This document shows, piece after piece, positions 12,635 through 52,100 of a stretch of DNA of 64,000 nt; within the stretch, counting starts at the first letter, position 1; each line of letters starts with the position of its first letter. The notes beneath the pieces are model-generated. The model was given only the letters and a program-made list of their open reading frames with translations, had not been told where the DNA came from and made no database searches. The stretch spans positions 1 through 64,000 of the forward strand of contig CALSPD010000027.1 in the NCBI GenBank assembly GCA_943788145.1, given 5' to 3'. Source of the stretch: an uncultured Flavobacteriales bacterium (lineage in GTDB: Bacteria; Bacteroidota; Bacteroidia; Flavobacteriales_G; Salibacteraceae). The position numbers and the translations under genes were made by a program.

Positions 12635-12714
12635 GCGTGCTCTGTTAAAAACTTAAGCGTGATTGAGTTTTTCTCGCGGTGAAGATGCGGATTTTTGGCT
12701 GGTATATTCAGCCT

Positions 12715-13905
12715 ATGAAGCCACTATTTACCTTTTGTTTTTTCGTTTTCTCTATTCTTTGCGTCCAAAGTCAGTCAAACTACAAAACGGATAAAGACAT
12801 TTCCGTTGGTGCCAAACAATACAAGGAATACGCCCCGTTGCTAAATGGTAAATCGGTGGGAATAGTAGGCAATCACACCACATTGATCGATTCTGCTCAC
12901 TTGGTAGATTGGCTCTTAGCGAAAGGCGTGAAGGTCAAAAAGGTTTTTGCACCAGAACATGGTTTTCGAGGAAAGGCTGATGCTGGCGAATCCGTAGATA
13001 GCGAAAAAGATGCAAAAACGGGCCTCCCCATTATTAGTCTCTATGGGTCGCATAAAAAGCCAACTGCTCAGGATTTTGAGGGAATTGACATCATCATTTT
13101 CGATATTCAAGATGTGGGCGCGCGATTCTATACCTACATCTCAACCATGACCTACGTTATGGAGGCATGCGCTGAAAATAGTATTCCGATCATCGTGCTT
13201 GATCGACCCAATCCAAATGGCTTTTACATCGATGGACCCATTTTGCAGAAGGAGTATAAATCCTTTGTGGGCATGCATCCGATGCCCATTGTACATGGAA
13301 TGACGGTGGGCGAATTGGCTCAACTTTTTAATGAAGAAGGATGGCTTGAAAATGGAGTGAAATGCGATTTAACCGTGGTTAAATGCAGGGGATATCAGCA
13401 TAGCGATATATACGTATTGCCCGTAAAGCCATCGCCAAACCTTCCAAATCAAAATGCCATTCTATTGTATCCGTCTTTGTGCTTGTTTGAAGGAACGGAT
13501 GTTTCTGTTGGTAGAGGTACAGATCATCCCTTCGAACTATTTGGACATCCGAATCTGACACAAGGATCTTATTTATTCGTCCCAAAAAGCACGGAAGGAG
13601 CTAAGAATCCTAAACATGAAGGCGTGCCATGCGTTGGCTGGGATTTAACCGAGTTTGGAGGAAAGAACATTCAACAGAAGCAACACCTCGTTATTGAATA
13701 CCTCGTAAATGCTTATCGAGAGTTTCCCGCCAAAGACAACTTTTTTCTATCCAATGGATTTTTTGAAAAGTTAGCTGGTACGGACGAGCTGCGAAGTCAA
13801 ATTGAAGCAGGCTTGACTGCCGATCAAATTCGAGCGTCTTGGCAACCTGGATTGGCGGCTTTTAATCGGACTAGGGTCAAGTACTTGCTTTATGAGGATT
13901 TTTGA
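12715..13905 (+). CDS. namZ: NamZ-like exo-beta-N-acetylmuramidase (DUF1343)
   Basis: 396 residues counted from the ATG at 12715, which gives a clean signal peptide (MKPLFTFCFFVFSILCVQSQ). An ATG 36 bp earlier would put a polar stretch in front. The DUF1343 core is clear: VGIVGNHTTLID, FAPEHGFRGKADAGE, IIFDIQDVGARFYTYISTM, LDRPNPNG, MTVGELAQLFN and FEGTDVSVGRGTDHPFE. The characterised member NamZ removes terminal MurNAc from peptidoglycan fragments, so a periplasmic muropeptide-recycling role is expected. The substrate of this copy is inferred from family only. The integron-like array starts about 135 bp downstream. Confidence 0.88.
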   Translation: MKPLFTFCFFVFSILCVQSQSNYKTDKDISVGAKQYKEYAPLLNGKSVGIVGNHTTLIDSAHLVDWLLAKGVKVKKVFAPEHGFRGKADAGESVDSEKDAKTGLPIISLYGSHKKPTAQDFEGIDIIIFDIQDVGARFYTYISTMTYVMEACAENSIPIIVLDRPNPNGFYIDGPILQKEYKSFVGMHPMPIVHGMTVGELAQLFNEEGWLENGVKCDLTVVKCRGYQHSDIYVLPVKPSPNLPNQNAILLYPSLCLFEGTDVSVGRGTDHPFELFGHPNLTQGSYLFVPKSTEGAKNPKHEGVPCVGWDLTEFGGKNIQQKQHLVIEYLVNAYREFPAKDNFFLSNGFFEKLAGTDELRSQIEAGLTADQIRASWQPGLAAFNRTRVKYLLYEDF

Positions 13906-14040: not shown

Positions 14041-14096
14041 CCAACCTCAACTAATTCGGATATATGCGATATTCGTATATATACGCGGTAGTGATA
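14041..14096 (+). repeat. Possible attC-like site at the 5' end of the array
   Basis: Weakest of the sites. GGATATATGCG (14058-14068) and CGTATATATAC (14074-14084) can pair at 9 of 11 positions around a 5-base loop. Right after them GGTAGTGATA (14087-14096) is nearly the reverse complement of CTATCACTAAC, which ends the next gene unit at 14640. CGTATATATACG is itself a perfect 12-bp palindrome, so coincidence is possible. Confidence 0.4.
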
Positions 14097-14107
14097 ATTA
14101 AAATCCG

Positions 14108-14674
14108 ATGAAACCACTCCTGAGATTAAAATCATGGCAAACCTTTATCGTATTGATATTTTCCACCATCTTAATTTTTATTGTGTCCATTTTCAACCTA
14201 TCCATTGATGATTGGTCTAGGGCTCAGACAATAGAGTTTTTTCGGATTGTTGGATTATTGATTTATACGCTTTGGCTCTTTTTTCTTGGACTTGAACTAA
14301 ATCGGAAGGACAATAACCCGTATAGATTCAACAATCTTTTACTGGCCTTTGCATCCTTTAGTTTTTTTACGGGATATGCTAGTATAAATCTTGCCGTTTT
14401 TCCGGCCTTTGAAACTTTGCCTTTTTCTATTCGGATTTTAAGTATGCCCTTGACATTTTTTGGACTCATATTCCTATTTTACAATATTCCAATGTCTCTG
14501 AAATCAATAGAATTGGACAGAAAAGTCAAATACTCTGAATGTTTGTTTGACGTACTTCTACTCTTCTCTAGTGTTATTGGAATAGGAATTTGGTGGCTTC
14601 AGCCAAGAATGAATAAAATTGAAAAAAAACTATCACTAACAAAACCTAAGAAAACATGTGGAGAAACGAACTGA
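14108..14674 (+). CDS. Small multi-pass membrane protein, cassette gene 1
   Basis: 188-residue protein not recognised as a named family. Hydropathy suggests five membrane segments, at about 12-32, 45-63, 75-97, 107-127 and 142-165, with a short basic C-terminal tail (RMNKIEKKLSLTKPKKTCGETN split by eye, no domain). The stop codon lies inside the following attC-like site, so the last dozen residues are encoded by the recombination-site repeat, a common trait of integron cassettes. It has no operon partner. The AT-rich sequence and high Ile/Phe/Lys content differ from the flanking NamZ and aminotransferase genes and fit horizontal acquisition. Confidence 0.65.
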   Translation: MKPLLRLKSWQTFIVLIFSTILIFIVSIFNLSIDDWSRAQTIEFFRIVGLLIYTLWLFFLGLELNRKDNNPYRFNNLLLAFASFSFFTGYASINLAVFPAFETLPFSIRILSMPLTFFGLIFLFYNIPMSLKSIELDRKVKYSECLFDVLLLFSSVIGIGIWWLQPRMNKIEKKLSLTKPKKTCGETN

Positions 14675-14764
14675 AAGTAAGCTTAGAACTTTGTAGTTTA
14701 GTTCGTCACGGGCGGACAGAAACGCACTTCGAAAACCCCACGTTTCTTAGCTAAATCGTTGGGC
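14634..14764 (+). repeat. attC-like site 1
   Basis: R'' CACTAAC ends at 14640. L'' TAAGAAAACATGTGG (14647-14661) pairs with L' CCCCACGTTTCTTA (14736-14749), leaving one extra unpaired A on one arm. CTAAATC then leads to R' GTTGGGC (14758-14764), an exact GTTRRRY match. It is about 75-80% identical by eye to site 2. Confidence 0.7.
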
Positions 14765-14779
14765 TTCATTTAAAATAAA

Positions 14780-15484
14780 ATGAGAATTCTTGCCACCTTA
14801 CTTCTACTTGGACTGACATTAACTTTCTGCACCCAGCCAGAAGTTACCACTGAAGACTCAGAACTAACACACAAGAACCTCCAAAGAATACTGAAACATA
14901 CATATTGGAAGTTTGCTTGGGAAAAAGCCATAGATCCCGAAAGGACTGGACATTACGAAGTTAAAGTTGCTAAACTTCAAAAATTGACAGAAGAGTTTAT
15001 TGCTTCAAAAGCTCAGTCAACCAATGAATTCAATGAACGCAAGCAAGAACTGATCGACTACATCAATTCACTTTATTCCAACAGACTTCCCCATTCAGTA
15101 CAGAAAGCTTCTGACGTGACCTATTTAGTTGATACACTGAACCACGAATCTGAATTGCAACTAGTTACAAGTAACAGCTATACCGCTGCAATTTTGACAA
15201 CAATAAACTTGATGCAAGAAAGTTCCTTTGATGCGTACTATTTTGACACGACCTATTTCTACCAGCGGGAAGTACAACTTAATGGAAATAAGGTAATTCA
15301 ACTTCTTCCAGTACCTATTAGCAACACTCAATATTCAAAACTCATTCTTGGAAACGATACAATGTACTTAGCACAAGACAGTATCTTTCTTGACGAGGAA
15401 CAAGTCAAACAATTCAAGACCTTCAAATATCACAAGCACAGTAAAGGTGGTAATATGAAGTACATTAAAGGAGAAATAAAATAA
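14780..15484 (+). CDS. Putative lipoprotein, cassette gene 2
   Basis: 234 residues with an N-terminal lipoprotein signal: hydrophobic MRILATLLLLGLTLTFC with the lipidated Cys at residue 17, then a Thr/Glu-rich linker. The body is mixed alpha/beta. A charged helical stretch (about 40-95) is followed by a beta-rich part with repeated Thr/Tyr (about 110-200). No family is recognised. The gene starts 15 bp after attC-like site 1 and ends 8 bp before site 2, so it fills its cassette completely. Probable location is the periplasmic face of a membrane. Function unknown. Confidence 0.65.
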   Translation: MRILATLLLLGLTLTFCTQPEVTTEDSELTHKNLQRILKHTYWKFAWEKAIDPERTGHYEVKVAKLQKLTEEFIASKAQSTNEFNERKQELIDYINSLYSNRLPHSVQKASDVTYLVDTLNHESELQLVTSNSYTAAILTTINLMQESSFDAYYFDTTYFYQREVQLNGNKVIQLLPVPISNTQYSKLILGNDTMYLAQDSIFLDEEQVKQFKTFKYHKHSKGGNMKYIKGEIK

Positions 15485-15492
15485 AAAACGAA

Positions 15493-15622
15493 GCCCACAA
15501 AACCAAAGAAAACATGGGGAGAAACGTACTGAAAGCAAGCATAGAACTTCGTAGTTTAGTTTGTCAAGGGCGGACAGAAATGTACTTCGAAATCCCCACG
15601 TTTCTTAGCTAAATCGTTGGGG
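15493..15622 (+). repeat. attC-like site 2
   Basis: R'' GCCCACAA (15493-15500). L'' AAAGAAAACATGGGGA (15505-15520) pairs with L' TCCCCACGTTTCTT (15593-15606) with one bulged A. R' is GTTGGGG (15616-15622). The end of the preceding unit (GAAGCCCA) is the reverse complement of its beginning (TGGGCTTC, from 14760). Homologous along its length to site 1. Confidence 0.7.
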
Positions 15623-15640
15623 CCAATTTGAAAAAAACGA

Positions 15641-16390
15641 ATGACAATCCAAGAAATATTAAGCAAAACAGAACACAGACCATGGGAAATTCCGACTGAC
15701 AGTTGGAAATTCTATCAAGAGTGGAATAAAGCAATATTTCTTCATTATCAAGTAGACCTGACCGAACTAAAAAAGTTTGTTCCCAAAGAATTGGTAATTG
15801 ACCTTTTTGATGGTAAACCGTGGATTTCAATCGTTGCCTTTACAATGGAAAAGATAAGACCGAAAAACCTACCTTCTTTTCCACCAATATCGGATTTTGA
15901 TGAAATAAATATTCGGACTTATGTTAAATCGACTAACAAGACCGGAGTTTATTTTTTGAGCATTGAGGGAGGAAAAAACCTGTCCTGTAAAGTCGCAAAG
16001 GGAGTTTCGGAACTTCCGTATCGATTTTCAGAAATTAAGCGGACCGACAATAAATATCAATCCAAAAATTCGGAATTTAACGACAGGCTTGACATTGAAT
16101 TTACGATAGGAAAGGAACTGAAAGAAAAAACGGAACTGGACAAATGGCTAACTGAAAGATATGCTCTTTTCCAAGATTCGAGCCAATCAATCAACGAATT
16201 TGACATCCATCATTTGGAATGGCCAATTAATCAAATTGACGTGCAAAAACTGGATTTCAGCTATCCGAGATTTGAAAATTTAATAACTAAAGAGCCAAGT
16301 AAAATCCATTACTCGAAAGGAGTAAAGGTGTTGGCTTGGGGGAAAATAAAAAAGAAAAAAACTAGCTACAACAAAACCTATACGCAATAG
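15641..16390 (+). CDS. DUF2071 (YqjF-like) protein, cassette gene 3
   Basis: 249-residue DUF2071 protein. Characteristic parts are the N-terminal HRPWEIPTDSWKFYQEWNK, HYQVDLTELKKFVPKELVID, FDGKPWISIVAFTMEKIRP, the INIRTYVK strand, GVYFLSIEGGKNLSCKVAKG and a C-terminal RYALFQDS...HHLEWP region. The family is acetoacetate-decarboxylase-like in fold but its biochemical role is unknown. The protein is soluble with no signal peptide. The last nine residues and the stop lie in attC-like site 3. It is a single gene between two recombination-site repeats, with no operon partner. DUF2071 genes are plausible mobile cassette cargo. Confidence 0.85.
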   Translation: MTIQEILSKTEHRPWEIPTDSWKFYQEWNKAIFLHYQVDLTELKKFVPKELVIDLFDGKPWISIVAFTMEKIRPKNLPSFPPISDFDEINIRTYVKSTNKTGVYFLSIEGGKNLSCKVAKGVSELPYRFSEIKRTDNKYQSKNSEFNDRLDIEFTIGKELKEKTELDKWLTERYALFQDSSQSINEFDIHHLEWPINQIDVQKLDFSYPRFENLITKEPSKIHYSKGVKVLAWGKIKKKKTSYNKTYTQ

Positions 16391-16434
16391 CGCCCTGCGG
16401 GACGCTACTGCGCATAGCTAAACCTCTAGCTGCA
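16367..16434 (+). repeat. attC-like site 3 (compact)
   Basis: The most compact and most convincing stem. CTATACGCAATAGCG (16378-16392) pairs with CGCTACTGCGCATAG (16403-16417), and the loop CCCTGCGGGA adds a CCC/GGG extension. The two mismatches are A-C on the top strand but T-G wobbles on the bottom strand, the strand that integron integrases fold and use. R'' is TACAAC (16367-16372); R' around 16425-16434 is degenerate. Confidence 0.7.
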
Positions 16435-16444
16435 AGTAAAATCG

Positions 16445-16945
16445 ATGACCAGAGAAATAAAATATCGGACGAACGGAGCTGTAGGGGCATTGCTTGATGA
16501 ATACGAAAAAGCCATATATGAACTAACCTTAACAATTGACGGACTAGATGAGAAGGGATTGGTATTTGTGGTTGATTCTGAAACAAAAGATGAAGACTGT
16601 AAATCAATTCAAACCTTATTGACTCACATAGTTCAAAGTGGTTTCACTTACGTTGTTGAAATAAGAAAGTGGCTTGGAGAAGAAATTAATTATCGTGACA
16701 AAGTGACTTTAAACAGCGTTCAAGAATACAAATCTGAGTTATCCGATATGTTCAATTTTACTGAAAGTCTCTTTATTGACCACCCAGATATTAACTTAAC
16801 CGAACTTGACTTTAGCAAGAAGATTAAAGTTAAATGGGGGCAGACTTTTGATATTGAACAATTAATGCAACACGCAATAGTTCATATATTAAGGCACAGA
16901 CGACAAATTGAAAAGTTTAAATTGAAATTAATAACCAGCAGCTGA
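16445..16945 (+). CDS. DinB-family protein, cassette gene 4
   Basis: 166-residue four-helix DinB/YfiT-type protein. The predicted metal-binding histidines are His in LLTHIVQSGF (helix 2) and the pair in MQHAIVHILRHRRQIEKFK near the C-terminus, the usual DinB signature. Relatives include bacillithiol- or mycothiol-dependent transferases and many uncharacterised proteins, so the reaction is unknown. The protein is cytoplasmic with no signal peptide. The TGA stop sits inside the R'' arm of attC-like site 4. DinB-like genes recur in cassette arrays and other mobile DNA, which fits this setting. Confidence 0.82.
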   Translation: MTREIKYRTNGAVGALLDEYEKAIYELTLTIDGLDEKGLVFVVDSETKDEDCKSIQTLLTHIVQSGFTYVVEIRKWLGEEINYRDKVTLNSVQEYKSELSDMFNFTESLFIDHPDINLTELDFSKKIKVKWGQTFDIEQLMQHAIVHILRHRRQIEKFKLKLITSS

Positions 16946-17131
16946 AACGGTATATAGCAAATGGGGCGTCAGTGGTTTAGACAAGTTCAGTGCTATTTAC
17001 CAACACCGCCAAATCGTTGATTTGGCTTTTAAGAATGAATAAATTAAAAACAAAATACAACGCTTTGGCTCAGTGCAAACTCGAAAGTTTATCGCTTTCT
17101 ACTGCCCTATTTGCCATATTAACCGTTGTGT
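16938..17131 (+). repeat. attC-like site 4 (long)
   Basis: L'' ATATAGCAAATGGGGC (16952-16967) pairs with L' GCCCTATTTGCCATAT (17104-17119), 14 of 16 positions. R'' ends GCAGCTGAAAC (16938-16948); R' is GTTGTGT (17125-17131). The GCAGCT in R'' matches the reverse complement of the start of the same unit (AGCTGC at 16428). The loop is unusually long, about 136 bp. Confidence 0.62.
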
Positions 17132-17141
17132 GTAATTTAAA

Positions 17142-17642
17142 ATGAAGAACTATTCGCCTCCAATTCAAGATCGTACACTAGATGAACTTATGACAATTGT
17201 TTATTCTCAAGAAGGAGACTGGCAAGACGATGCTAAAATCCAAGCTAAAACTGAATTAGAAAAGCGAGGTATTGAACAAGAAAAACAAAGTGAGCTTCTT
17301 GAAAAGAACAGACAACGGCAACTAAAACTCCAAAAGAGTTATGAGGAACAACTTGAGAGAAATGCCATTATTCCTTACAGCCGTAGTGATATGTTAATCA
17401 TTTTTCTCAAGGCACCATTCATAATAGTAGGACGTTGGTCGTATCAGCTTTCTATTCCTGAATTGAGAAGAGAAAACTTCCAGATTAAAACTCGTCAAAG
17501 ACTGATACTGCTAATCACAGGGACTTTATTCTGGATTTTATTCATTTATGGTAGCTATAAATGGTCGGAATACAATAGACTGCAGGAAATTGAGAACGCT
17601 GACATCTCTGATTGGGAGGAGAACAGAATAATAGATGAATAA
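17142..17642 (+). CDS. Small membrane-anchored protein, cassette gene 5
   Basis: 166 residues, family not recognised. The N-terminal 90 residues are charged and helical, with a coiled-coil-like Glu/Lys/Gln stretch (about 42-80: EKRGIEQEKQSELLEKNRQ and onward). A possible membrane-associated segment (about 88-105) and one clear TM (about 128-148, LILLITGTLFWILFIYGSY) follow, then an acidic tail. It starts 10 bp after attC-like site 4 and ends 8 bp before site 5. Its flanks, GTTGTGTGTAATTT and AAATTACACACAAC, are perfect reverse complements, making this the best-defined excisable unit of the array. Confidence 0.65.
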   Translation: MKNYSPPIQDRTLDELMTIVYSQEGDWQDDAKIQAKTELEKRGIEQEKQSELLEKNRQRQLKLQKSYEEQLERNAIIPYSRSDMLIIFLKAPFIIVGRWSYQLSIPELRRENFQIKTRQRLILLITGTLFWILFIYGSYKWSEYNRLQEIENADISDWEENRIIDE

Positions 17643-17650
17643 AAAAATTA

Positions 17651-17804
17651 CACACAACAAAGGTAACTGACCCCGAATCAAGTTCTGGACAGGTTTAACA
17701 ACCCTCCATTTCATCCAAAAACCACCTCAAATAAGCCTCCCGATAGCTATCGGGATAAGAGGCTTTATTTTTTAGCGTTGGTCAGTTTTCCTAAATAGTG
17801 AAGG
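17651..17804 (+). repeat. attC-like site 5, probably degenerate, at the 3' end of the array
   Basis: R'' CACACAAC (17651-17658). L'' AGGTAACTGACC (17661-17672) pairs with L' GGTCAGTTTTCCT (17780-17792). The R' position reads GTGAAGG (17798-17804), a poor match to GTTRRRY. The loop contains a separate terminator-like hairpin. Confidence 0.5.
17733..17772 (+). terminator. Hairpin terminator inside the last attC-like site
   Basis: Outer stem AAGCCTC (17733-17739) and GAGGCTT (17759-17765) encloses the perfect 16-bp palindrome CCCGATAGCTATCGGG (17739-17754), followed by TATTTTTT. It would stop plus-strand transcripts leaving the array. Confidence 0.65.
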
Positions 17805-17983: not shown

Positions 17984-19213
17984 CTAAACCTTCGCAATAA
18001 AAACACTGCTTTGCTCTTCCAACGATCGGGGATAAGCATCTAAGGCTTGTCTTAACACTTCGATGGCCAATTCTAACTGCGGTTTTTCCAACACATATGC
18101 CAGTCGGACTTCGCGAATACCAAGTCCTTTCGAGGCGTAAAAGCCTTCAGCAGGAGCCATCATAAGCGTGTTTCCATTGTATTCAAAATTGTCCAAAATC
18201 CATTGGCAAAACTTTTCAGCATTGTCCACAGGAAGTTCGGCCATAGCATAAAAGGCGCCTCCTGGCATAGGGCAGGTTACACCTTCAATGCTATTCAATC
18301 CATTTACGAGGGTATTCCTGCGCTCAACGTATTCTTCTATAACATCGTTGAAATAACTTTCGGGTGTGGCTAAAGCGGCTTCGCCAGCAATTTGACCAAT
18401 GGTGGGCGGGCTCAGTCGAGCTTGAGCAAACTTCATGGCCGTGCTCATCACTTCCTTGTTTCTCGAAACAAGAGCACCAACTCGTGCTCCGCACATACTG
18501 TAGCGTTTCGAAACAGAGTCAACTACAATGGCGTGGTCATCCATGCCTTCTAAACTTAAAATAGAATGGTGCTCGCGACCATCGTAGCAAAATTCGCGAT
18601 AGACTTCATCGGCCAATAAGAAAAGGTCGTGCTTCAAACAGATTTTCTTTAGCGTTTCTAGTTCGGCTCGCGTATATAAATAGCCCGTTGGGTTTCCTGG
18701 ATTACAGATGATGATACCACGCGTTCGGTCGGTAATTAATTCTTCAAAATCCTCAACAGGTGGCAAGGCATATTTATCCTTTAAATAAGTAGTAACGGGC
18801 CGTAAAATGACTTGAGACTCTAATGCAAACGCATTGTAATTGGCGTAAAATGGTTCGGGAACAATGATTTCATCATCTTGATTGAAGCAAGTCATCATGG
18901 CAAACATGATAGCCTCAGAACCTCCATTTGTGACGATTATTTGATTGTGGTCAACGTCAATGCCGTTGGCTTTATAATAGTTGGTTAAACCCTTTCTATA
19001 GGAAAGGAAACCTGCGCTATGACTGTACTCAATAACCTTTTGGTCAAACGATTTGATGGCGTTGAGCGCCACTTCAGGCGTTTCAATGTCCGGTTGTCCG
19101 ATGTTGAGGTGAATTACATTTTTTCCAGCTTCGATCGCTCGTTCGGCATAGGGGACAAGCTTGCGAATTGGAGATTCGGGCATCGCGTAACCCTTCTTAG
19201 ATATAAACGGCAT
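17984..19213 (-). CDS. Class I/II aminotransferase, aspartate-type
   Basis: 409-residue fold-type I PLP enzyme. Substrate-binding NIGQPDIETPE is near 38-48, NGGSEAIMFAMM at the cofactor site, and CNPGNPTGYLYTRAELE near 173-189. DEVYREFCYDG carries the Asp that bonds the pyridine nitrogen. SVSKRYSMCGARVG contains the Schiff-base Lys236. LAYVLEK holds the C-terminal Arg region. The sequence resembles the aspartate/alanine-type subgroup, but donor specificity cannot be fixed by eye. It transfers an amino group from an amino acid to 2-oxoglutarate. It is a single gene on the minus strand; its 3' side faces the cassette array. Confidence 0.88.
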   Translation of the reverse strand: MPFISKKGYAMPESPIRKLVPYAERAIEAGKNVIHLNIGQPDIETPEVALNAIKSFDQKVIEYSHSAGFLSYRKGLTNYYKANGIDVDHNQIIVTNGGSEAIMFAMMTCFNQDDEIIVPEPFYANYNAFALESQVILRPVTTYLKDKYALPPVEDFEELITDRTRGIIICNPGNPTGYLYTRAELETLKKICLKHDLFLLADEVYREFCYDGREHHSILSLEGMDDHAIVVDSVSKRYSMCGARVGALVSRNKEVMSTAMKFAQARLSPPTIGQIAGEAALATPESYFNDVIEEYVERRNTLVNGLNSIEGVTCPMPGGAFYAMAELPVDNAEKFCQWILDNFEYNGNTLMMAPAEGFYASKGLGIREVRLAYVLEKPQLELAIEVLRQALDAYPRSLEEQSSVFIAKV

Positions 19214-44791: not shown

Positions 44792-44885
44792 AAACCGTTT
44801 GATTTGTAATCGATTATTGGTTAATTGATTTCTTTTTACCTTGAAACGCCTTATTAGGCAAGCGCTTATCAGTAGTTCTTCACGA

Positions 44886-46946
44886 ATGATTCGAATATTA
44901 ATCTTCATTTTCTTCATTGCCGGGTTTTCACGGAATGTGCATGCCCAAGGAAATTTTGTGAAGAATGGCGGGTTTGATACCTTATCGCCTTGTCCGTCTG
45001 GTTTGTCTCAAATTTATCAGGCATCGTGGAATTTACCGACACTTCATGCTGGTTCGAGTGACCTTTTTAACGTTTGTGCCACCAATGCCAGCGTTGGCGT
45101 ACCGTCAAATTTTAGAGCCAATAATTGTCCAGCTTTTAATGGTGGAGGCTATGTTGGGGGCTATCTTTATTTGAATGCATCAACGTATAAAGAATACATA
45201 TGCGACACACTTAAAGCACCTCTAGTTGCTGGGCGCATATACATCGTTTCCTTTATGTATAAGTTGGCTGATATGGCGGCTCTGGCAACGGATGATCTGG
45301 GGTTTTATTTAAGCGTAAATTATCCTGCAGGAAACACATATGGTGCGCTTGGTGTGGTTCCAACATCGCAAAATACTTCAGGAAATTTTTTGACCGATCA
45401 AGTCAACTGGCAGCTCTATACAGACACTATTGTGGCTTTGGGAGGAGAAGAATACATCACGCTTGGTGGTTTTGATAGTATTTCCAATTCGATTGTTTTG
45501 GATAGCACCTCAACCAATGGTTGGGCTTATTACTATTATGACAGCGTGAGCATCTATGAGTTTTATGGAATAGAACAACCGGACATTTGTCTGGGTGAAA
45601 CGGCTTTCCCTGAAGTTGATACTGCAGGAGTCGATTCATTGTATTGGGATTTCGATGATCCCAGTTCTGGTGCATTAAACAATTCAACGCTATTTTTCCC
45701 GCAACACCTATATCAAGATTCTGGAACTTATACGATTAAAGTTGTTCGATTCTTTGGTTCGGTGACGGATACTTTAGAAACGACATTTCAAGTTTATCCG
45801 CGTCAGTCTATTCAATTAGGATTGGATACATTGCTTTGCCGTGAAGCAGAATTTACGCTGTATGCCTCGCAACCCTTTTCCAATTTCCTGTGGCAAGATT
45901 TAAGCACTGCTGACAGCTTTGTCGTTGATGGCGACACGGTGGTTTATGTTACTGTGTTTGGAGCCTGTGATACTGTTTCAGACACCCTGCGAATTATGTA
46001 TGATGATTCCATTCGTTTTGATCTCGGTCCTGACACAACCTTGTGTGGAGGAAGCAATTATCTCCTGGATTCAAAAATTGATGTACGAGCTCAATTACTT
46101 TGGTCAACAGGAGATACAACTTTAGCTTTAAATGTGTTAGAAAGCGGCACTTACACTTTAAACGCCCAAAATGCGTGTGGGGCAGAAAATGACACAGTAA
46201 AGATTATTTTCAAACCGATTCCATCGTCCGTTCTCTTACCCGCAGATACGGTTAATTGCTTTGATAATGCCATCGTGTTGACTCGACCCGATTTAGATAG
46301 CACGACTTACGTTTGGAGCGATTCCACCAAGAAAAAGACCTACACGGTTGACACGACAGAGACGGTTTGGTTAGCAGCATTTAATGATTGTGGGATTACC
46401 GTTGACACGATGCGAATTGTTTTCAATGGTGAGATAGAGTCAGATTTAGGTAGCGATACCATCATTTGCAATCTAGATTCTCTTGTGCTAAATGCACATC
46501 AAAATGGCGCGACCTATGTCTGGAATACGGGTGATACAGCCGACTCTATCGTAGCTAGCACCAAAAGCCAATTGTATATAGTCACCATTACATTACGCGA
46601 ATGTCAAACCATCGAATCCAAGCGAGTCGATTTGTCTGATGTGTTTTGTCCGAGTATTGATTGCCGCCTACAAACCATGAATGTGTTCACGCCAAACGCA
46701 GACGGTGTTAATGACATTTGGCGTGCTACAAGTGATTGTGAAATCCTATCCTACCAATTGAATATTTATAACCGTTGGGGACAACTAGTCCATTCCAGCG
46801 CCAATGCCGAATTTGGTTGGGATGGCTTTATTGATGGCGTACCAGCTTCAGAAGGGACATACTTTTTTGAACTTCAATTCCGAGACACGGTTGTGGTAGA
46901 TGTCGATCGACAGGGTTTTAAGGGTTTTCTGACGCTGATACGTTAA
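44886..46946 (+). CDS. T9SS type B surface protein 1 of tandem family
   Basis: 686 residues from the ATG at 44886 (signal MIRILIFIFFIAGFSRNVHAQ); a longer frame adds 15 polar residues. N-terminal domain (about 25-225) is jelly-roll-like (GNFVKNGGFDTLSPCPSG, VSFMYKLADMAAL). A PKD domain (about 235-315) and three or four Ig-like repeats with the LGxDTxxC pattern follow. The C-terminal gliding-associated domain reads NVFTPNADGVNDIWRA, IYNRWGQLVHSS, GWDGFIDGVPASEGTYFFEL. The last 360 residues align without gaps with the three following genes but are more diverged at DNA level, and the N-terminal domain is unrelated to theirs. Confidence 0.88.
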   Translation: MIRILIFIFFIAGFSRNVHAQGNFVKNGGFDTLSPCPSGLSQIYQASWNLPTLHAGSSDLFNVCATNASVGVPSNFRANNCPAFNGGGYVGGYLYLNASTYKEYICDTLKAPLVAGRIYIVSFMYKLADMAALATDDLGFYLSVNYPAGNTYGALGVVPTSQNTSGNFLTDQVNWQLYTDTIVALGGEEYITLGGFDSISNSIVLDSTSTNGWAYYYYDSVSIYEFYGIEQPDICLGETAFPEVDTAGVDSLYWDFDDPSSGALNNSTLFFPQHLYQDSGTYTIKVVRFFGSVTDTLETTFQVYPRQSIQLGLDTLLCREAEFTLYASQPFSNFLWQDLSTADSFVVDGDTVVYVTVFGACDTVSDTLRIMYDDSIRFDLGPDTTLCGGSNYLLDSKIDVRAQLLWSTGDTTLALNVLESGTYTLNAQNACGAENDTVKIIFKPIPSSVLLPADTVNCFDNAIVLTRPDLDSTTYVWSDSTKKKTYTVDTTETVWLAAFNDCGITVDTMRIVFNGEIESDLGSDTIICNLDSLVLNAHQNGATYVWNTGDTADSIVASTKSQLYIVTITLRECQTIESKRVDLSDVFCPSIDCRLQTMNVFTPNADGVNDIWRATSDCEILSYQLNIYNRWGQLVHSSANAEFGWDGFIDGVPASEGTYFFELQFRDTVVVDVDRQGFKGFLTLIR

Positions 46947-47009
46947 CAACTAGTTCGTGTTTTTTGGTCGAAACATGCCACTTTTGCTCGAAAACTGCGT
47001 CTCCATACC
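46947..47009 (+). promoter_or_regulatory. 63-bp repeated intergenic region with promoter, copy 1
   Basis: This region and those at 49494 and 52038 are all exactly 63 bp and largely identical. Each contains CACTTTTG (46979-46986 here), one mismatch from TAnnTTTG, placed 23 bp before the ATG. Each paralogue may therefore have its own copy of one promoter. Confidence 0.5.
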
Positions 47010-49493
47010 ATGCTTCGAATTGTTTCTCTGTTTTTTATCTTATTTATCGTTGCAAACGCGCACGCCCAAACTCCTGCAGATTGGTGGTATTTTGGTAATC
47101 AAGCTGGTTTACACTTTGAAGCGGGAGGACCTGTGGCCGACCCAAATGGGGTGTTGAGTACAAGCGAAGGTTGCGCTTCCATCTCTGACGCTGGAGGAAA
47201 TTTATTGTTTTATACCGATGGTATTTCAGTGTTCGATGCAACACACACATTAATGCCAAATGGGGGAGGATTATTAGGTAATTCTTCATCCACTCAGTCG
47301 GCCATTGTTATTCCTCGGCCACAATCAAACACCCAGTTTTACATCTTTACGGTCGATGACGGTGCGGGAGTTGACGGTATGAAATACACTAAAGTTGATA
47401 TGACGCTAAACGGTGGTTTAGGCGATGTTGTCACCTCTGAAAAGAACATTTCACTCGTTACTCCAACGGCAGAAAAAGTTGCCAGTTTGAAAAAACCAAA
47501 TGGTTATTGGGTCGTGACGATGAAAATCCCATCCGATACCGTTTATGCCTATGAAGTTACGTCTGCAGGAGTGAATCTGACGCCCGTTACAAGCAATACT
47601 GGACTTTCCCTCACCACATCAAACTTTTGGGGTTACCTTAAAGGAAACGTCCAAAGCTCCAAATTGGGTTTCATATCGCAAGGAATAAGCGAAGCTTATG
47701 TGTTTGATTTTGATGTGACTACCGGAATGGTGACGGGCTCAGTAGCGATTACACAAACCATTGGAGGAGGCACAGGATATGGCATTGAGTTCTCACCAGA
47801 TGGCAACTTACTTTATACAATGAGTTATGGTACTTGCGATTTGAAACAATATGATCTAACCCTTGTAACATCTGCGGCAATCTCAGCTTCAGAGGTCATT
47901 TTGGGAAATACGGTTAGTGGCGGAGGGGCGCTTCAAATCGGTCCAGATGGTAAAATGTACATATGCAGAAGTGGAAAACCATATCTAAGTGCTATTGAGT
48001 TTCCGAATGTCTATGGATCAGGTGCCAATTTCATTGATACGGCCGTTGCCCTGTCTACCGGTAAAACATGTGTGTTAGGGTTACCAACCTTCGTTCAGTC
48101 CTTCTTTAATGTTGCTTTTGATGCGGACAATGCATGCTTTGGTGATAGTTCTTTTTTTAGCGTTGACACTGTTGGTGTAGATAGCGTGAAATGGAATTTT
48201 GGTGATCCCGCAAGCGGAACGAGTAACACATCCAACGACTTCTTTCCTTTTCATATTTTCAGCGATACCGGTGCATTTACCATAACCTTAATTGCCTATT
48301 CAGATACCTTGGTTGATACTGCTTATCAATCGGTTTTTATTTACCCGCATCAATCGGTCGATTTTGGCCCAGATACCCTCGTTTGTCGTGGGACTCAATT
48401 GGAACTGGTTGTTACCCAACCCTATGCCCAGTTTCTTTGGCATGATACCACCACAGCTGACACGTTTTTAACTACAGGTGAAAATATAGTTTGGGTACAA
48501 GTTTCGGGTTATTGCGACACGGTTTCGGACACGTTATTTATTTCCTACGATGATACGATTGAATTTGACCTTGGACCAGACACCTTGCTTTGTGGTGGAA
48601 CAGGTTATTTCATCGATGCCAATGTTCAGCAAAACGCCATCATTCAATGGAATACGGGCGATTCAGTGGATGCTATAACGGTGACCGAAAGTGGGATTTA
48701 CGAAATGAATGCAGTTAATACCTGCGGACCGGTAAATGACACGATTAAGGTCACCTTTAAACCGATTCCGAGTTTGAGTTTACTTCCTCCCGATACCCTA
48801 AATTGCTTCGATAAAGCCATTGTTTTAACGCGGCCAGACTTGGATAGCACGACTTTCATTTGGAGTGATTCGACCAAGAAGAAGACTTATACCGTTGATT
48901 CGACCGAAACGGTCTGGTTGGCGGCTTTCAACGAGTGTGGCTCATCCATCGACACCATAAATATTGTGTTTAATGGAGAAATAAAATCGGAGCTAGGAGC
49001 AGATACCATCATTTGCAATCTAGATTCTCTTGTGCTAAATGCACATCAAAATGGCGCGACCTATATCTGGAATACGGGCGATACAGCCGACTCCATCGTT
49101 TCGGGTACGAAGAGCCAATTGTACATCGTTACCATCACTTTGCGTGAATGTCAGACCATAGAGTCGAAACGGGTTGATCTATCCGATGTGTTTTGTCCAG
49201 GTATCGATTGCCGCTTACATACCATGAACGTTTTCACTCCTAATGGAGATGGCGTAAACGATATTTGGCGCGCCTCGAGTGATTGTGAAATCCTTTCGTA
49301 TCAGCTTAATATATACAACCGTTGGGGGCAGCTAGTTCATTCTAGCGCCAATGCTGAATTTGGTTGGGATGGCTTTATCGATGGCGTTCCAGCGTCAGAA
49401 GGAACATACTTTTTTGAGCTGCAATTCCGAGACACGGTTGTTGTCGATGTCGACCGACAAGCATTTAAAGGGACTTTTATGCTAAAGCGTTAA
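47010..49493 (+). CDS. T9SS type B surface protein 2 of tandem family
   Basis: 827 residues. The signal peptide (MLRIVSLFFILFIVANAHAQ) is followed by a beta-propeller-like N-terminal domain (about 22-375) opening with TPADWWYFGNQAGLHFEAGG and containing KPNGYWVVTMK and IGPDGKMYICRSGKPYLSAI. A PKD domain (about 378-450: VKWNFGDPASG) and four Ig-like repeats of about 85 residues (each with FGPDT/LGPDT and a Cys) come next. The last part is a gliding-associated C-terminal domain (NVFTPNGDGVNDIW, YNRWGQLVHSS). It is targeted to T9SS and anchored on or released from the surface. The N-terminus has diverged from the next two genes while the C-terminus is nearly identical. Confidence 0.9.
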   Translation: MLRIVSLFFILFIVANAHAQTPADWWYFGNQAGLHFEAGGPVADPNGVLSTSEGCASISDAGGNLLFYTDGISVFDATHTLMPNGGGLLGNSSSTQSAIVIPRPQSNTQFYIFTVDDGAGVDGMKYTKVDMTLNGGLGDVVTSEKNISLVTPTAEKVASLKKPNGYWVVTMKIPSDTVYAYEVTSAGVNLTPVTSNTGLSLTTSNFWGYLKGNVQSSKLGFISQGISEAYVFDFDVTTGMVTGSVAITQTIGGGTGYGIEFSPDGNLLYTMSYGTCDLKQYDLTLVTSAAISASEVILGNTVSGGGALQIGPDGKMYICRSGKPYLSAIEFPNVYGSGANFIDTAVALSTGKTCVLGLPTFVQSFFNVAFDADNACFGDSSFFSVDTVGVDSVKWNFGDPASGTSNTSNDFFPFHIFSDTGAFTITLIAYSDTLVDTAYQSVFIYPHQSVDFGPDTLVCRGTQLELVVTQPYAQFLWHDTTTADTFLTTGENIVWVQVSGYCDTVSDTLFISYDDTIEFDLGPDTLLCGGTGYFIDANVQQNAIIQWNTGDSVDAITVTESGIYEMNAVNTCGPVNDTIKVTFKPIPSLSLLPPDTLNCFDKAIVLTRPDLDSTTFIWSDSTKKKTYTVDSTETVWLAAFNECGSSIDTINIVFNGEIKSELGADTIICNLDSLVLNAHQNGATYIWNTGDTADSIVSGTKSQLYIVTITLRECQTIESKRVDLSDVFCPGIDCRLHTMNVFTPNGDGVNDIWRASSDCEILSYQLNIYNRWGQLVHSSANAEFGWDGFIDGVPASEGTYFFELQFRDTVVVDVDRQAFKGTFMLKR
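48414..49493 (+). repeat. 1,080-bp near-identical block, copy A
   Basis: Starts in the second Ig-like repeat (CCCAACCCTATGCCCAGTTT) and runs to the stop codon. It aligns without any length change with 50958-52037 and 53484-54563; differences are scattered, mostly synonymous, substitutions. Confidence 0.9.
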
Positions 49494-49556
49494 AAACTAG
49501 TTCGTGTTTTTTAGCGGAAACATGCCACTTTTGCCCAAAGATTGCGTCTCCATACC
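49494..49556 (+). promoter_or_regulatory. 63-bp repeated intergenic region with promoter, copy 2
   Basis: Same length as copies 1 and 3 and almost identical to copy 3, including the TTCGTGTTTTTTAGCGGAAA segment and CACTTTTG at 49526-49533. Confidence 0.5.
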
Positions 49557-52037
49557 ATGCTTCGAATTGTTTCTTTGTTTTTCTTGTTGCTTTTCTTTGG
49601 TAAAGCAAATGCTCAAACTCCTGCCGATTGGTGGTATTTTGGGAACCACGCGGGTTTGCATTTCACCAGTGGTGGCCCTGTCGTGTTGAATGACGGTCAG
49701 ATGACAACAAGTGAAGGTTGCACCACCATTTCTGACCCTCAAGGTAACCTCTTATTTTATTCAGACGGAATTACAGTTTGGGATAAAAACCATCAAGTAA
49801 TGCCTAATGGCACTGGACTTTTAGGGAATCCATCATCGACTCATTCGGGTATGGCCGTACCACGGCCGGGAAGCACAACAGAATTCTATTTGTTTACAGC
49901 AGATGCATCAGGGTCTGGCGGTCAAGGAATGCATTATACCAAAATTGACATGACGTTGAATTCTGGTGACGGAGACGTGGTGACAAGCGAGAAGAATGTC
50001 TTTTTAGCTGATTCTACCTGTGAAAAAATAGCTGGTGTGAAGAAATCAAATGGATATTGGGTTTTGACACATACCCAATATACCGATGACTTTTATGCTT
50101 TTTCAGTTACAGCCTCAGGCGTTAATTTAACACCTGTCATAACCAATACTGGAGTAAATATTGGTTATGGTTTTGGTTTTGGAATCAAACCATCCACGCA
50201 AGGAGATCAGGTAATTTGTACGCATCATTCCATGGATTCTGCATATCTGTATGATTTTGATTTAAATAGCGGAATGGTTACCAATACTATTGGAATAGGC
50301 GCGTCAGTTTCGGGAACCTTGTTATATGGGGTTGAGTTTTCACCTAGTGGTGATCTGTTGTATATGCAGCCGTATAGTGCCGGAACCGTCTTTCAGTATG
50401 ACTTAACGCAAGGAACGTCTGCCGCGATTTCCGCTTCCGAAATCACATTAGGTTCAGGGTCTGGTGGAGGAATGTTGCAACTTGGACCAGATGGTAAAAT
50501 GTATTGTGCCCGCGTTGGACAACCCAAACTGAGTGTTGTCCATTTTCCCGATGTCTTAGGAACAGGAGCGAGCTGGGAAGATACCAGTATTGTACTTTTA
50601 ACAGGATCAAATAGTAATTACGGATTACCAACATTTGTCCAAACTTTTTTCAGCATAGGATTCGATGTCACAAATGGTTGCATTGGCGATACATCCTTCT
50701 TTAGCTTGGATACGAGTGGTGTGGATAGCGTGAAATGGAATTTTGGCGATGTAGCGAGCGGAGTAAATAATACTTCCAATACCTATTTTCCATACCATAT
50801 TTTTAGTGATACGGGTGCATTCACGGTTACGCTTATTGCTTATTCTGACACACTCGTGGATACTGCCCTACAAGAAATATTCATATATCCTCACCAGTTC
50901 ATTGATCTCGGTACAGATACCTTGGTTTGTCGTGGAACGGAACTCATTTTTAGTGCGGCCCAACCCTACGCTCAGTTTCTATGGCACGATACCACCACGG
51001 CTGACACGTTTTTGACTACAGGTGAAAATATAGTTTGGGTGCAAGTTTCGGGTTATTGCGACACGGTTTCGGACACGGTATTTATTTCCTATGATGATAC
51101 GATTGAATTTGACCTTGGACCAGACACCTTGCTCTGTGGTGGAACAGGTTATTTCATCGATGCCAATGTTCAACAAAACGCCATCATTCAATGGAATACG
51201 GGCGATTCAGTGGATGCTATAACGGTGACCGAAAGTGGGATTTACGAAATGAATGCAGTTAATACCTGCGGATCGGTAAATGACACGATTAAGGTCACTT
51301 TTAAACCGATTCCGAGTTTGAGTTTACTTCCTCCCGACACCCTAAATTGCTTCGATAAAGCCATTGTTTTAACGCGGCCAGACTTGGATAGCACGACTTT
51401 CATTTGGAGTGATTCGACCAAGAAGAAGACTTATACCGTTGATTCGACCGAAACGGTCTGGTTGGCGGCTTTTAACGAGTGTGGCTCATCCATCGACACC
51501 ATAAATATTGTGTTTAATGGAGAAATAAAATCGGAGCTAGGAGCAGACACCATCATTTGCAATCTAGATTCTCTTGTGCTAAATGCACATCAAAATGGCG
51601 CGACCTATATCTGGAATACAGGCGATACAGCCGACTCCATCGTTTCGGGTACGAAGAGCCAATTGTACATTGTTACCATCACTTTGCGTGAATGTCAGAC
51701 CATAGAGTCGAAACGGGTTGATCTATCCGATGTGTTTTGTCCAGGTATCGATTGCCGCTTACATACGATGAACGTTTTCACCCCTAATGGAGATGGCGTA
51801 AATGATATCTGGCGCGCCTCAAGTGATTGTGAAATCCTTTCGTATCAGCTTAATATATACAACCGTTGGGGTCAGCTAGTTCATTCTAGCGCCAATGCTG
51901 AATTTGGTTGGGATGGCTTTATCGATGGCATTCCAGCGTCAGAAGGAACATACTTTTTTGAACTTCAATTCAGAGACACGGTTGTTGTCGATGTCTATCG
52001 ACAAGGATTTAAAGGGACTTTAATGCTAAAGCGTTAA
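49557..52037 (+). CDS. T9SS type B surface protein 3 of tandem family
   Basis: 826 residues from the ATG at 49557 (MLRIVSLFFLLLFFGKANAQ), matching the start of gene 2. Same architecture: propeller-like domain opening TPADWWYFGNHAGLHFTSGG, with LGPDGKMYCARVGQPKLSVV; PKD domain (VKWNFGDVASGVNN); Ig-like repeats; gliding-associated C-terminal domain. The N-terminal 380 residues share only scattered blocks with genes 2 and 4. One Asp in the last strand of the C-terminal domain is replaced by Tyr (VVVDVYRQGF versus VVVDVDRQ). Probably exported by T9SS. Ligand unknown. Confidence 0.9.
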   Translation: MLRIVSLFFLLLFFGKANAQTPADWWYFGNHAGLHFTSGGPVVLNDGQMTTSEGCTTISDPQGNLLFYSDGITVWDKNHQVMPNGTGLLGNPSSTHSGMAVPRPGSTTEFYLFTADASGSGGQGMHYTKIDMTLNSGDGDVVTSEKNVFLADSTCEKIAGVKKSNGYWVLTHTQYTDDFYAFSVTASGVNLTPVITNTGVNIGYGFGFGIKPSTQGDQVICTHHSMDSAYLYDFDLNSGMVTNTIGIGASVSGTLLYGVEFSPSGDLLYMQPYSAGTVFQYDLTQGTSAAISASEITLGSGSGGGMLQLGPDGKMYCARVGQPKLSVVHFPDVLGTGASWEDTSIVLLTGSNSNYGLPTFVQTFFSIGFDVTNGCIGDTSFFSLDTSGVDSVKWNFGDVASGVNNTSNTYFPYHIFSDTGAFTVTLIAYSDTLVDTALQEIFIYPHQFIDLGTDTLVCRGTELIFSAAQPYAQFLWHDTTTADTFLTTGENIVWVQVSGYCDTVSDTVFISYDDTIEFDLGPDTLLCGGTGYFIDANVQQNAIIQWNTGDSVDAITVTESGIYEMNAVNTCGSVNDTIKVTFKPIPSLSLLPPDTLNCFDKAIVLTRPDLDSTTFIWSDSTKKKTYTVDSTETVWLAAFNECGSSIDTINIVFNGEIKSELGADTIICNLDSLVLNAHQNGATYIWNTGDTADSIVSGTKSQLYIVTITLRECQTIESKRVDLSDVFCPGIDCRLHTMNVFTPNGDGVNDIWRASSDCEILSYQLNIYNRWGQLVHSSANAEFGWDGFIDGIPASEGTYFFELQFRDTVVVDVYRQGFKGTLMLKR
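50958..52037 (+). repeat. 1,080-bp near-identical block, copy B
   Basis: Ungapped partner of 48414-49493 and 53484-54563. Similarity with copy C also extends about 25 bp upstream (CGTGGAACGGAACTCATTTT here). Confidence 0.9.
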
Positions 52038-52100
52038 AAACTAGTTCGTGTTTTTTAGCGGAAACATGCCACTTTTGCCTAAAGATTGCGTCTCCATTCC
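52038..52100 (+). promoter_or_regulatory. 63-bp repeated intergenic region with promoter, copy 3
   Basis: Differs from copy 2 at only a few bases and keeps CACTTTTG (52070-52077) 23 bp before the ATG at 52101. Confidence 0.5.

Follow-up and report, generated by a model that had tools for sequence, protein, structure and literature searches.

A partly decayed cassette array in a Salibacteraceae genome and a candidate integron lineage with XerA-like recombinases

Introduction

Which enzyme built an array of gene cassettes that has no integrase beside it? The question is raised by a 64,000-nt stretch of DNA (the window: positions 1 to 64,000 of contig CALSPD010000027.1, assembly GCA_943788145.1) from an uncultured Flavobacteriales bacterium of the Salibacteraceae. 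An initial annotation read one part of it as a row of integron cassettes, single genes separated by attC recombination sites, without an integrase. Our analysis supports, with a probability of roughly 0.8, a more specific reading: the row is a small, partly decayed cassette array lying away from its integrase, and it belongs to an integron lineage that is independent of the canonical integrase IntI and has XerA-like recombinases. We call these enzymes patch-less, meaning recombinases without the ~43-residue IntI-specific insertion.

Integron surveys of the IntegronFinder type call an integrase only where the IntI-specific domain is present, according to PMC9668308. Bacteroidota are listed among the integron-bearing phyla in PMC8618304. 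In a survey of complete genomes, Salinibacter ruber is the single case of a complete integron given for Bacteroidetes; integrase-only elements known earlier and Chlorobi/Ignavibacteriae come in addition (PMC9024848). Published attC models for 11 taxa exclude Bacteroidota, as far as the main text goes, where the string 'bacteroid' is absent (PMC8352920). We found no account of integron integrases without the IntI-specific domain in the open-licence PMC literature, a scope that leaves out preprints and subscription papers.

Results

The array consists of five open reading frames (ORFs; 188, 234, 249, 166 and 166 aa) at 14108-17642, flanked by genes for NamZ and an aminotransferase. All five lie on the plus strand with sites B to E between them, as the initial annotation had proposed for single-gene, co-oriented units (Table 1). 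We assembled a reference set of 90 sites in 46 loci, of which 79 have both a Y-AAC and a GTT-R box and were retained; 11 were dropped. The sites of 112-130 nt, with identical ones taken once (54 of the 79, from 18 loci), were aligned as bottom strand and gave a covariance model, R1, in which the window genome has no part and its genus accounts for three loci. Applied to the six window sites, R1 recognised B, C and D clearly and E weakly, and left A and F unrecognised, so the proposed attC identity of the inverted repeats stands for the first three, tentatively for E, and by this model falls for A and F. Sites B and C are 91% identical across 125 nt. The distance from B to C is 858 nt and from C to D about 870 nt. 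The boxes of B and E look intact; those of A, C and D are broken. Site A, in which a hairpin and a GGT lead into cassette 1, resembles a left border of attI type more closely than an attC.

The annotation had also suggested folding the bottom strands. Single-sequence folding of the bottom strand exceeded shuffles for D (z -5.1) and F (z -3.8) and was no better than shuffles for B (z -0.67), C (z -0.95) and A (z 0.35). The attC call for B and C rests on R1. Between the two strands, the bottom one is better by 1.3-4.1 kcal/mol in C, D, E and F, equal in B (-14.1/-14.0) and worse in A. Site E has a stem score of 16.8. The stem scan of 426 kb of the window genome is noisy, with 39 matches against 29 shuffled ones at a score of 13.5 and 7 against 0 above 16; no shuffled match reached 16.

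R1 also found sites on other contigs of the genome, namely C20 (five sites), C25, C1, C4, C12 and C5, the last cut by the contig end; those on C12 and C5 come from one scan covering 426 kb. Lists made with default filters are lower bounds, as the C25 site (67.4 bits) and four matches in genome G106 (locus L204) were each missed once. The five sites on C20 (L017, G000:C20:1-20000) are close to a series of nearly identical coding repeats of ~60 nt and to apparent insertion sequence pieces.

The aligned family has a common predicted fold. Its 21 pairs in three helices are paired in 94.8% of cells, compared with 33-53% for slid structures, and double changes occupy 241 cells at 16 pairs vs 84.8 in shuffles. 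This comparison shows attC stems that appear to be kept by covariation. Three G.U pairs of the bottom strand are fixed or nearly so (present in 53, 53 and 40 of the 54 sequences) and correspond to A.C mismatches on the top strand, and these near-fixed pairs lead to the prediction that the bottom strand folds better. Because the stem scan credits bottom-strand wobble, we repeated the wobble and strand counts with symmetric scoring. Wobble-blind, this gave 94 wobbles for the bottom strand vs 4 for the top. Of 56 sites, all but three had the more stable fold on the bottom strand (53 sites), with a mean difference of 3.2 kcal/mol.

The ends of the cassettes carry a record of how they were joined. 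The 79 retained sites bound 54 cassettes in 17 loci, and in these the start matches the cassette's own end at a mean of 5.59/8 positions, vs 2.55 for permuted ends (standard deviation 0.20, maximum 3.28 in 5000). The R'' and R' halves of one linear site match at only 2.62/8. Complementarity of a start to its own end, and not between the halves of a linear site, is what must follow if circular cassettes are cut at G^TT. In the window, the start is complementary to its own end in three of five cassettes in strict register. The sum of 26/40 is reached by one of 120 permutations, namely the true order, and cassette 5 has a 14-nt perfect inverted match between start and end. One cassette common to genomes G041, G008 and G033 is 87-92% identical over ~1.35 kb from the GTT onward; it stands first beside the recombinase in G033 and behind an attC in the other two. 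The matching fraction in the 60 nt upstream of its GTT is 0.30-0.32, rising to 0.60 between two attC arms. Taken together, the comparison shows cassettes that had been joined at G^TT.

The genome measures 2.886 Mb on 31 contigs, with a completeness of 86.6%, and the window is its C27:1-64000 in our numbering. The genome has 11 places that match the integron integrase family TIGR02249 at E ≤ 0.001, none of them on the window contig, and a search for intI throughout the genome found no canonical IntI over the cut-off. The term integrase-less is thus apt for the window contig; it does not extend to the genome, where the best TIGR02249 matches are two XerA-like tyrosine recombinases on C25 (228.4 bits) and C5 (204.4 bits; cut-off 265). 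NF040815 (XerA) is the best family for both, with the C25 enzyme over its cut-off of 220 (241.1) and the C5 enzyme under it (211.3). Six positions are invariant in 16 aligned relatives (R237, K262, H325, R328, H351 and Y360 of the C25 enzyme), and we take them to have the catalytic roles. Between two aligned stretches, the C25 enzyme is ~43 residues shorter than IntI4 (2a3v), with 17 vs 60 residues. Correspondingly, the Arg-to-His spacing is 88-90 aa in patch-less enzymes vs 130-132 in the IntI type.

Of 42 genomes of the order, 23 encode a homologue at E ≤ 1e-40, our own being one of them. When one genome per species was searched, at least 590 loci matched. The 80 best were used, and in 73 of these the spacing from Arg (G.R..E) to His (H.LRH) is 88-91 or 130-132. 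Of the other seven, L085 (94), L110 (112), L140 (106) and L141 and L150 (96 each) have intermediate spacings, and L135 and L148 gave no measurement. Isolates with a patch-less enzyme include Seonamhaeicola aphaedonensis, Winogradskyella ursingii, Algibacter onchidii and Flavobacterium aciduliphilum. In a tree of 92 rows made by a quick method, the IntI-spacing enzymes, L110 among them, form one branch (Shimodaira-Hasegawa-like approximate likelihood ratio test 100), and the patch-less integron enzymes form another (98), which also takes in patch-less enzymes from other phyla. The tree does not order the deep branches and therefore neither supports nor contradicts a sister relation to IntI; our own XerD-like row has a very long branch. 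The C5 recombinase (L014, G000:C5:8062-9198, minus strand) is nearly the same as that of genome G028 (L056, G028:C9), with a branch of 0.013, whereas the valyl-tRNA synthetases are 82% identical, which makes a recent transfer within the genus likely.

Patch-less enzymes of the long subtype have an extra N-terminal domain that is weakly HARP-like. Among 10 N-termini, one (L105, 28.7 bits) exceeded the HARP cut-off (PF07443, 25 bits), two fell below it (18.4 and 18.1) and seven had no match at E ≤ 0.01. With whole proteins, 3 of 22 matched at E ≤ 0.5 and our own C25 and C5 enzymes gave no match at E ≤ 5. A profile of the N-terminus against PDB gave 4o66, a 76-residue SMARCA-like chain, at E 0.025 and an unrelated choline-binding protein at E 0.031. 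A structure search with a model of the whole enzyme gave little information on this domain. N-terminally extended enzymes also occur in records named outside Bacteroidota, namely metagenome-assembled genomes (MAGs) of Spirochaetota (L105), Undinarchaeota (L093) and Firmicutes (L095), where contamination is possible; in L105 an attI-type GTT stands at +118, with an attC-like site further on at +876. Three patch-less enzymes of Marinilabiliaceae and GWF2_41_31 (L102, L106, L111) have a longer, different-looking N-terminus (MFF...) and form their own branch, and L106 and L111 have attC-like sites downstream of the recombinase.

Across these loci, comparison shows patch-less recombinases that adjoin attI-like GTTs and arrays of the window's attC type. 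In a stem scan of 22 loci (score 13), 13 had attC-like sites downstream on the recombinase strand. Where more than 5 kb lies downstream, 11 of 12 loci had two or more sites; the twelfth is our own C5, with an R1 match of 25.1 bits. Symmetric scoring of 46 loci gave 70 plus matches over 284 kb on the downstream side, 13 over 331 kb on the upstream side and 13 over 662 kb of shuffled sequence. In the 88-90 spacing group the arrays lie downstream on the same strand (for example L081, L082, L086, L097 and L111), and in the 130-132 group upstream on the opposite strand (for example L116, L126 and L139); some IntI loci (L119, L122) have matches on both strands downstream. A short subtype (7 loci, ORFs of 246-319 aa) has the same 89-residue spacing and a divergent array. 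On held-out loci, R1 found divergent arrays in 7/7 of the short type and downstream same-strand arrays in 3/3 of the long type, with one orientation per locus save one weak reverse match in L197. The orientation at L202 and L205 rests on R1, because the strand call of the stem scan is unreliable for some palindromic sites. In L197 (G079:C33) and L204 (G106:C1) we observed several pairs of attC-like sites ~124 nt apart, one site per pair having a stem score of 24.2, as if a hairpin repeat travelled with each attC.

A candidate attI stands beside the recombinase in most loci. In 22 of 29 loci, our own C25 among them, the recombinase match is followed at a distance of 27-256 bp by a GTT with at least 6 nt complementary to the R'' of the first attC; with R'' taken from another locus the count was 2/812. 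The short subtype gave 4/7 (one of them 2 kb away), with a null of 0/42. An inverted repeat just before attI is a tendency only, its mean score of 5.96 vs 3.01 in shuffles being equalled or exceeded by 8.3% of shuffles.

We determined how the sites and the two kinds of enzyme are distributed in 118 genomes of the phylum, which are not independent of one another, using R1 with strict filters and a profile of patch-less enzymes (A1, E ≤ 1e-60). R1 sites were found in 68 genomes, a patch-less enzyme in 47 and IntI over the cut-off in 39. R1 sites were present in 29/30 genomes with the patch-less enzyme only, 13/17 with both enzymes, 7/22 with IntI only and 19/49 with neither. The association of the patch-less enzyme with R1 sites is significant in IntI-negative (Fisher p 7e-8) and IntI-positive genomes (p 0.0095), and that of IntI in patch-less-negative genomes is not (p 0.61). 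In the class of the window genome, the 29 genomes listed comprise 1 with IntI, 22 with the patch-less enzyme and 23 with R1 sites. R1 sites track the patch-less recombinase rather than IntI. In 222 kb surrounding 14 canonical IntI genes from the phylum, R1 gave one weak match (22.3 bits), and a generic stem scan, read by eye, showed divergent sites beside 9 of the 14. Outside the phylum, R1 gave 3 weak matches (18.5-22.6 bits) in 330 kb from 29 loci, of which 27 have IntI-type spacing. This near silence around canonical loci agrees with the earlier suspicion that the attC type is poorly covered by existing models. One genome, G106, has both systems, with IntI at C1:1000596 and the patch-less enzyme at C1:2286815.

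NamZ homologues are present in 12 of 13 genomes of the genus, our own included, and we retrieved the corresponding stretches of the 11 relatives. None of them contains a match to genes 1-5, and R1 gave no match at E ≤ 1 in these 98.7 kb. The NamZ-aminotransferase junction is covered in 10 of the 11 stretches: nine hold other DNA, in which we read a ~0.8 kb lipoprotein-like gene (seven relatives), an SDR-like gene (one) or an ABC pair (one), and G028 has 46 bp. In G017 the junction is not seen because the contig ends first, 3.5 kb past NamZ and short of the aminotransferase. Conserved gene order across the interval, named at the outset as an argument against a cassette array, was thus not what we observed within the genus. 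Judged from these relatives, the array is an insertion into a gene order conserved in the genus. In G028 (L177, G028:C5:795681-806294), NamZ and the aminotransferase match piecewise at the 46-bp junction, as pseudogenes or sequence errors.

Table 1 Features of the array and its flanks.
Feature	Position	Strand	Description	Support
NamZ	12679..13905	+	exo-beta-N-acetylmuramidase; left flank, kept in genus	Pfam NamZ_N/NamZ_C E 2.4e-83/4.5e-32
Site A	14057..14089	+	hairpin CGGATATATGCGA/TCGTATATATACG, then decayed box (GGT instead of GTT)	attI-like by resemblance only
Cassette 1	14088..14757	+	gene 14108-14674, membrane-protein-like, without Pfam family	start/end match 7/8
Site B	14634..14764	+	attC; crossover GTT 14758-14760	R1 50.4 bits
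Cassette 2	14758..15615	+	gene 14780-15484, lipoprotein-like (by eye)	start/end match 7/8
Site C	15492..15622	+	attC; AAC box decayed to AC	R1 44.7 bits
Cassette 3	15616..16425	+	gene 15641-16390, DUF2071 (Pfam E 1.3e-56)	start/end match 4/8
Site D	16366..16431	+	short attC; right GTT box gone	R1 33.3 bits (filters off)
Cassette 4	16426..17124	+	gene 16445-16945, DinB-like under Pfam cut-off	start/end match 0/8 in strict register
Site E	16946..17127	+	long attC, 182 nt	stem score 16.8
Cassette 5	17125..17658	+	up to R'' box; gene 17142-17642, no family over cut-off	start/end match 8/8
Site F	17652..17799	+	right border: AAC box intact, stem AACTGACC/GGTCAGTT, inner terminator-like hairpin, GTT absent	sequence, folding
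Aminotransferase class I/II	17984..19213	-	right flank, kept in genus	Pfam Aminotran_1_2 E 4.7e-54

Discussion

The most likely history of the window array is that its cassettes were inserted at a secondary place by the genome's own patch-less enzymes, or arrived as a block, and have been decaying since. In the mechanism we propose, a patch-less recombinase would bind the folded bottom strand of attC, with the extra N-terminal domain of the long subtype perhaps helping to hold single strands. It would nick at G^TT by its tyrosine, and cassettes would move between attC and attI. The enzymes of C25 and/or C5 may have acted in trans on the window array, which would then have lost boxes at A, C and D and would now be largely immobile. 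On the wider scale, an integron kind with a patch-less recombinase is apparently widespread and undescribed. We lean towards the view that this is a second, IntI-independent lineage, spread widely across Bacteroidota and perhaps present outside the phylum (in one Spirochaetota MAG), with XerA-like enzymes, many having a HARP-like single-strand-binding domain, that would recombine folded single-stranded attC, the choice of strand being set by fixed bottom-strand G.T pairs.

Several observations weigh against these readings. With default filters R1 misses site D, which it detects only with the filters off; site E scores only 19.6 bits and in the wrong register (its proper arms are at 16946-17127); and A and F are not recognised as attC at all. 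The boxes of cassettes 1 and 2 were registered by eye across decayed bases, and cassette 4 matches (6/8) only with a 2-nt shift picked afterwards. The start and end of cassette 3 are unmatched (4/8), and this cassette is chimaeric. The DUF2071 gene it carries has homologues in 7 of 296 genomes, our own included, and beside the other six R1 found no site (L192 reached 10 bits, E 0.76). Among the 22 scanned loci, nine lack a site on the expected side, eight of them with less than 3.5 kb downstream and the ninth our own C5 (8 kb). The attI test fails in seven of 29 loci (L057, L072, L073, L205, L081, L097 and L111). The count of further pair types in the attC alignment, 41, is unremarkable, as 32 of 500 shuffles reach it. 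R1 sites occur in the 19 genomes without either integrase mentioned above, and 5 of 47 genomes with a patch-less enzyme are without them. Finally, a nearer integrase could be missing, because the genome is only 86.6% complete.

Three other explanations can be weighed. A possible but doubtful course is that the whole array moved as a block, by an island or by transformation, into the NamZ-aminotransferase junction and has been unshuffled since. The decayed boxes at A, C and D, the one genus relative with 46 bp at the junction and the attI-type look of site A fit such a move; against it, a search for an integrase remnant beside site A gave none that was convincing (short scattered matches, best tblastn E 0.027). 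As to the nature of the units, a block move is compatible with our preferred explanation.

It is unlikely that the window array is an ordinary cassette array without an integrase (CALIN), in which a canonical IntI, elsewhere or formerly present, moved the cassettes and the XerA-like recombinase is a bystander. In its favour, IntI is over the cut-off in 39 of the 118 phylum genomes, and exogenous IntI can act in trans on CALINs, according to PMC9668308. However, IntI is not over the cut-off in the window genome and is so in only one of the 29 listed genomes of its class, it does not raise the frequency of R1 sites in patch-less-negative genomes (7/22 vs 19/49), and the 14 IntI loci gave a single weak R1 match, yet divergent sites at nine in the generic scan. 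It is very improbable that the repeats are dispersed palindromes (terminators, or elements like repetitive extragenic palindromes or miniature inverted-repeat transposable elements) among ordinary genes and not recombination sites: B and C alone fold no better than shuffles and F holds a terminator-like hairpin, but such palindromes give no reason for the start/end complementarity, the GTT beside the recombinase, the single orientation or the cassette homology starting at GTT.

The IntI-independent lineage that we favour shares much with canonical and sedentary chromosomal integrons: a tyrosine recombinase with an adjacent attI, co-oriented and mostly single-gene cassettes, hairpin attC with Y-AAC...GTT-R boxes, G^TT joining and a bottom strand predicted to fold better. 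It differs in its recombinase, which is without the IntI-specific insertion (Arg-to-His 88-90 vs 130-132 aa), and in its layout, the long subtype having the N-terminal domain and a downstream same-strand array and the short subtype a divergent array. In canonical attC, strand preference is conferred by extrahelical bases, whereas here the fixed bottom-strand G.T pairs would do so. IntI can also place cassettes at secondary genomic sites (attG-type insertion), and an event of this sort would account for cassettes at a distance from attI. Xer enzymes resolve dif sites. From XerA and the archaeal Xer enzymes (NF040815; PDB 4a8e, 5hxy) the patch-less enzymes differ in adjoining cassette arrays and, in the long subtype, in the N-terminal domain. 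Like a CALIN, the window has several attC spaced by less than 4 kb on a contig that gave no integrase match; unlike one, its attC are of another family and matching recombinases lie on other contigs of the genome. A downstream attI is not unique to these loci, having been reported for archaeal integrons (PMC9668308).

If this reading is true, a large reservoir of mobile cassettes in a major phylum has gone unseen. The IntI-specific domain, taken as a hallmark of integrons, would be dispensable for integron recombination, and surveys requiring it would have missed the lineage. One could then also test whether the IntI domain is required at all for recombining folded single-stranded DNA, or whether this ability arose twice.

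Other features of the window

Rfam, run over the whole window, gave no family at the gathering threshold, and PADLOC gave no match at E ≤ 0.01 for the five cassette proteins. Elsewhere in the window, at 44841-54563, four large ORFs (701, 827, 831 and 825 aa) stand in a row, with DNA blocks about 76-96% identical and a period of about 2.53 kb. These ORFs appear to be a tandem gene duplication.

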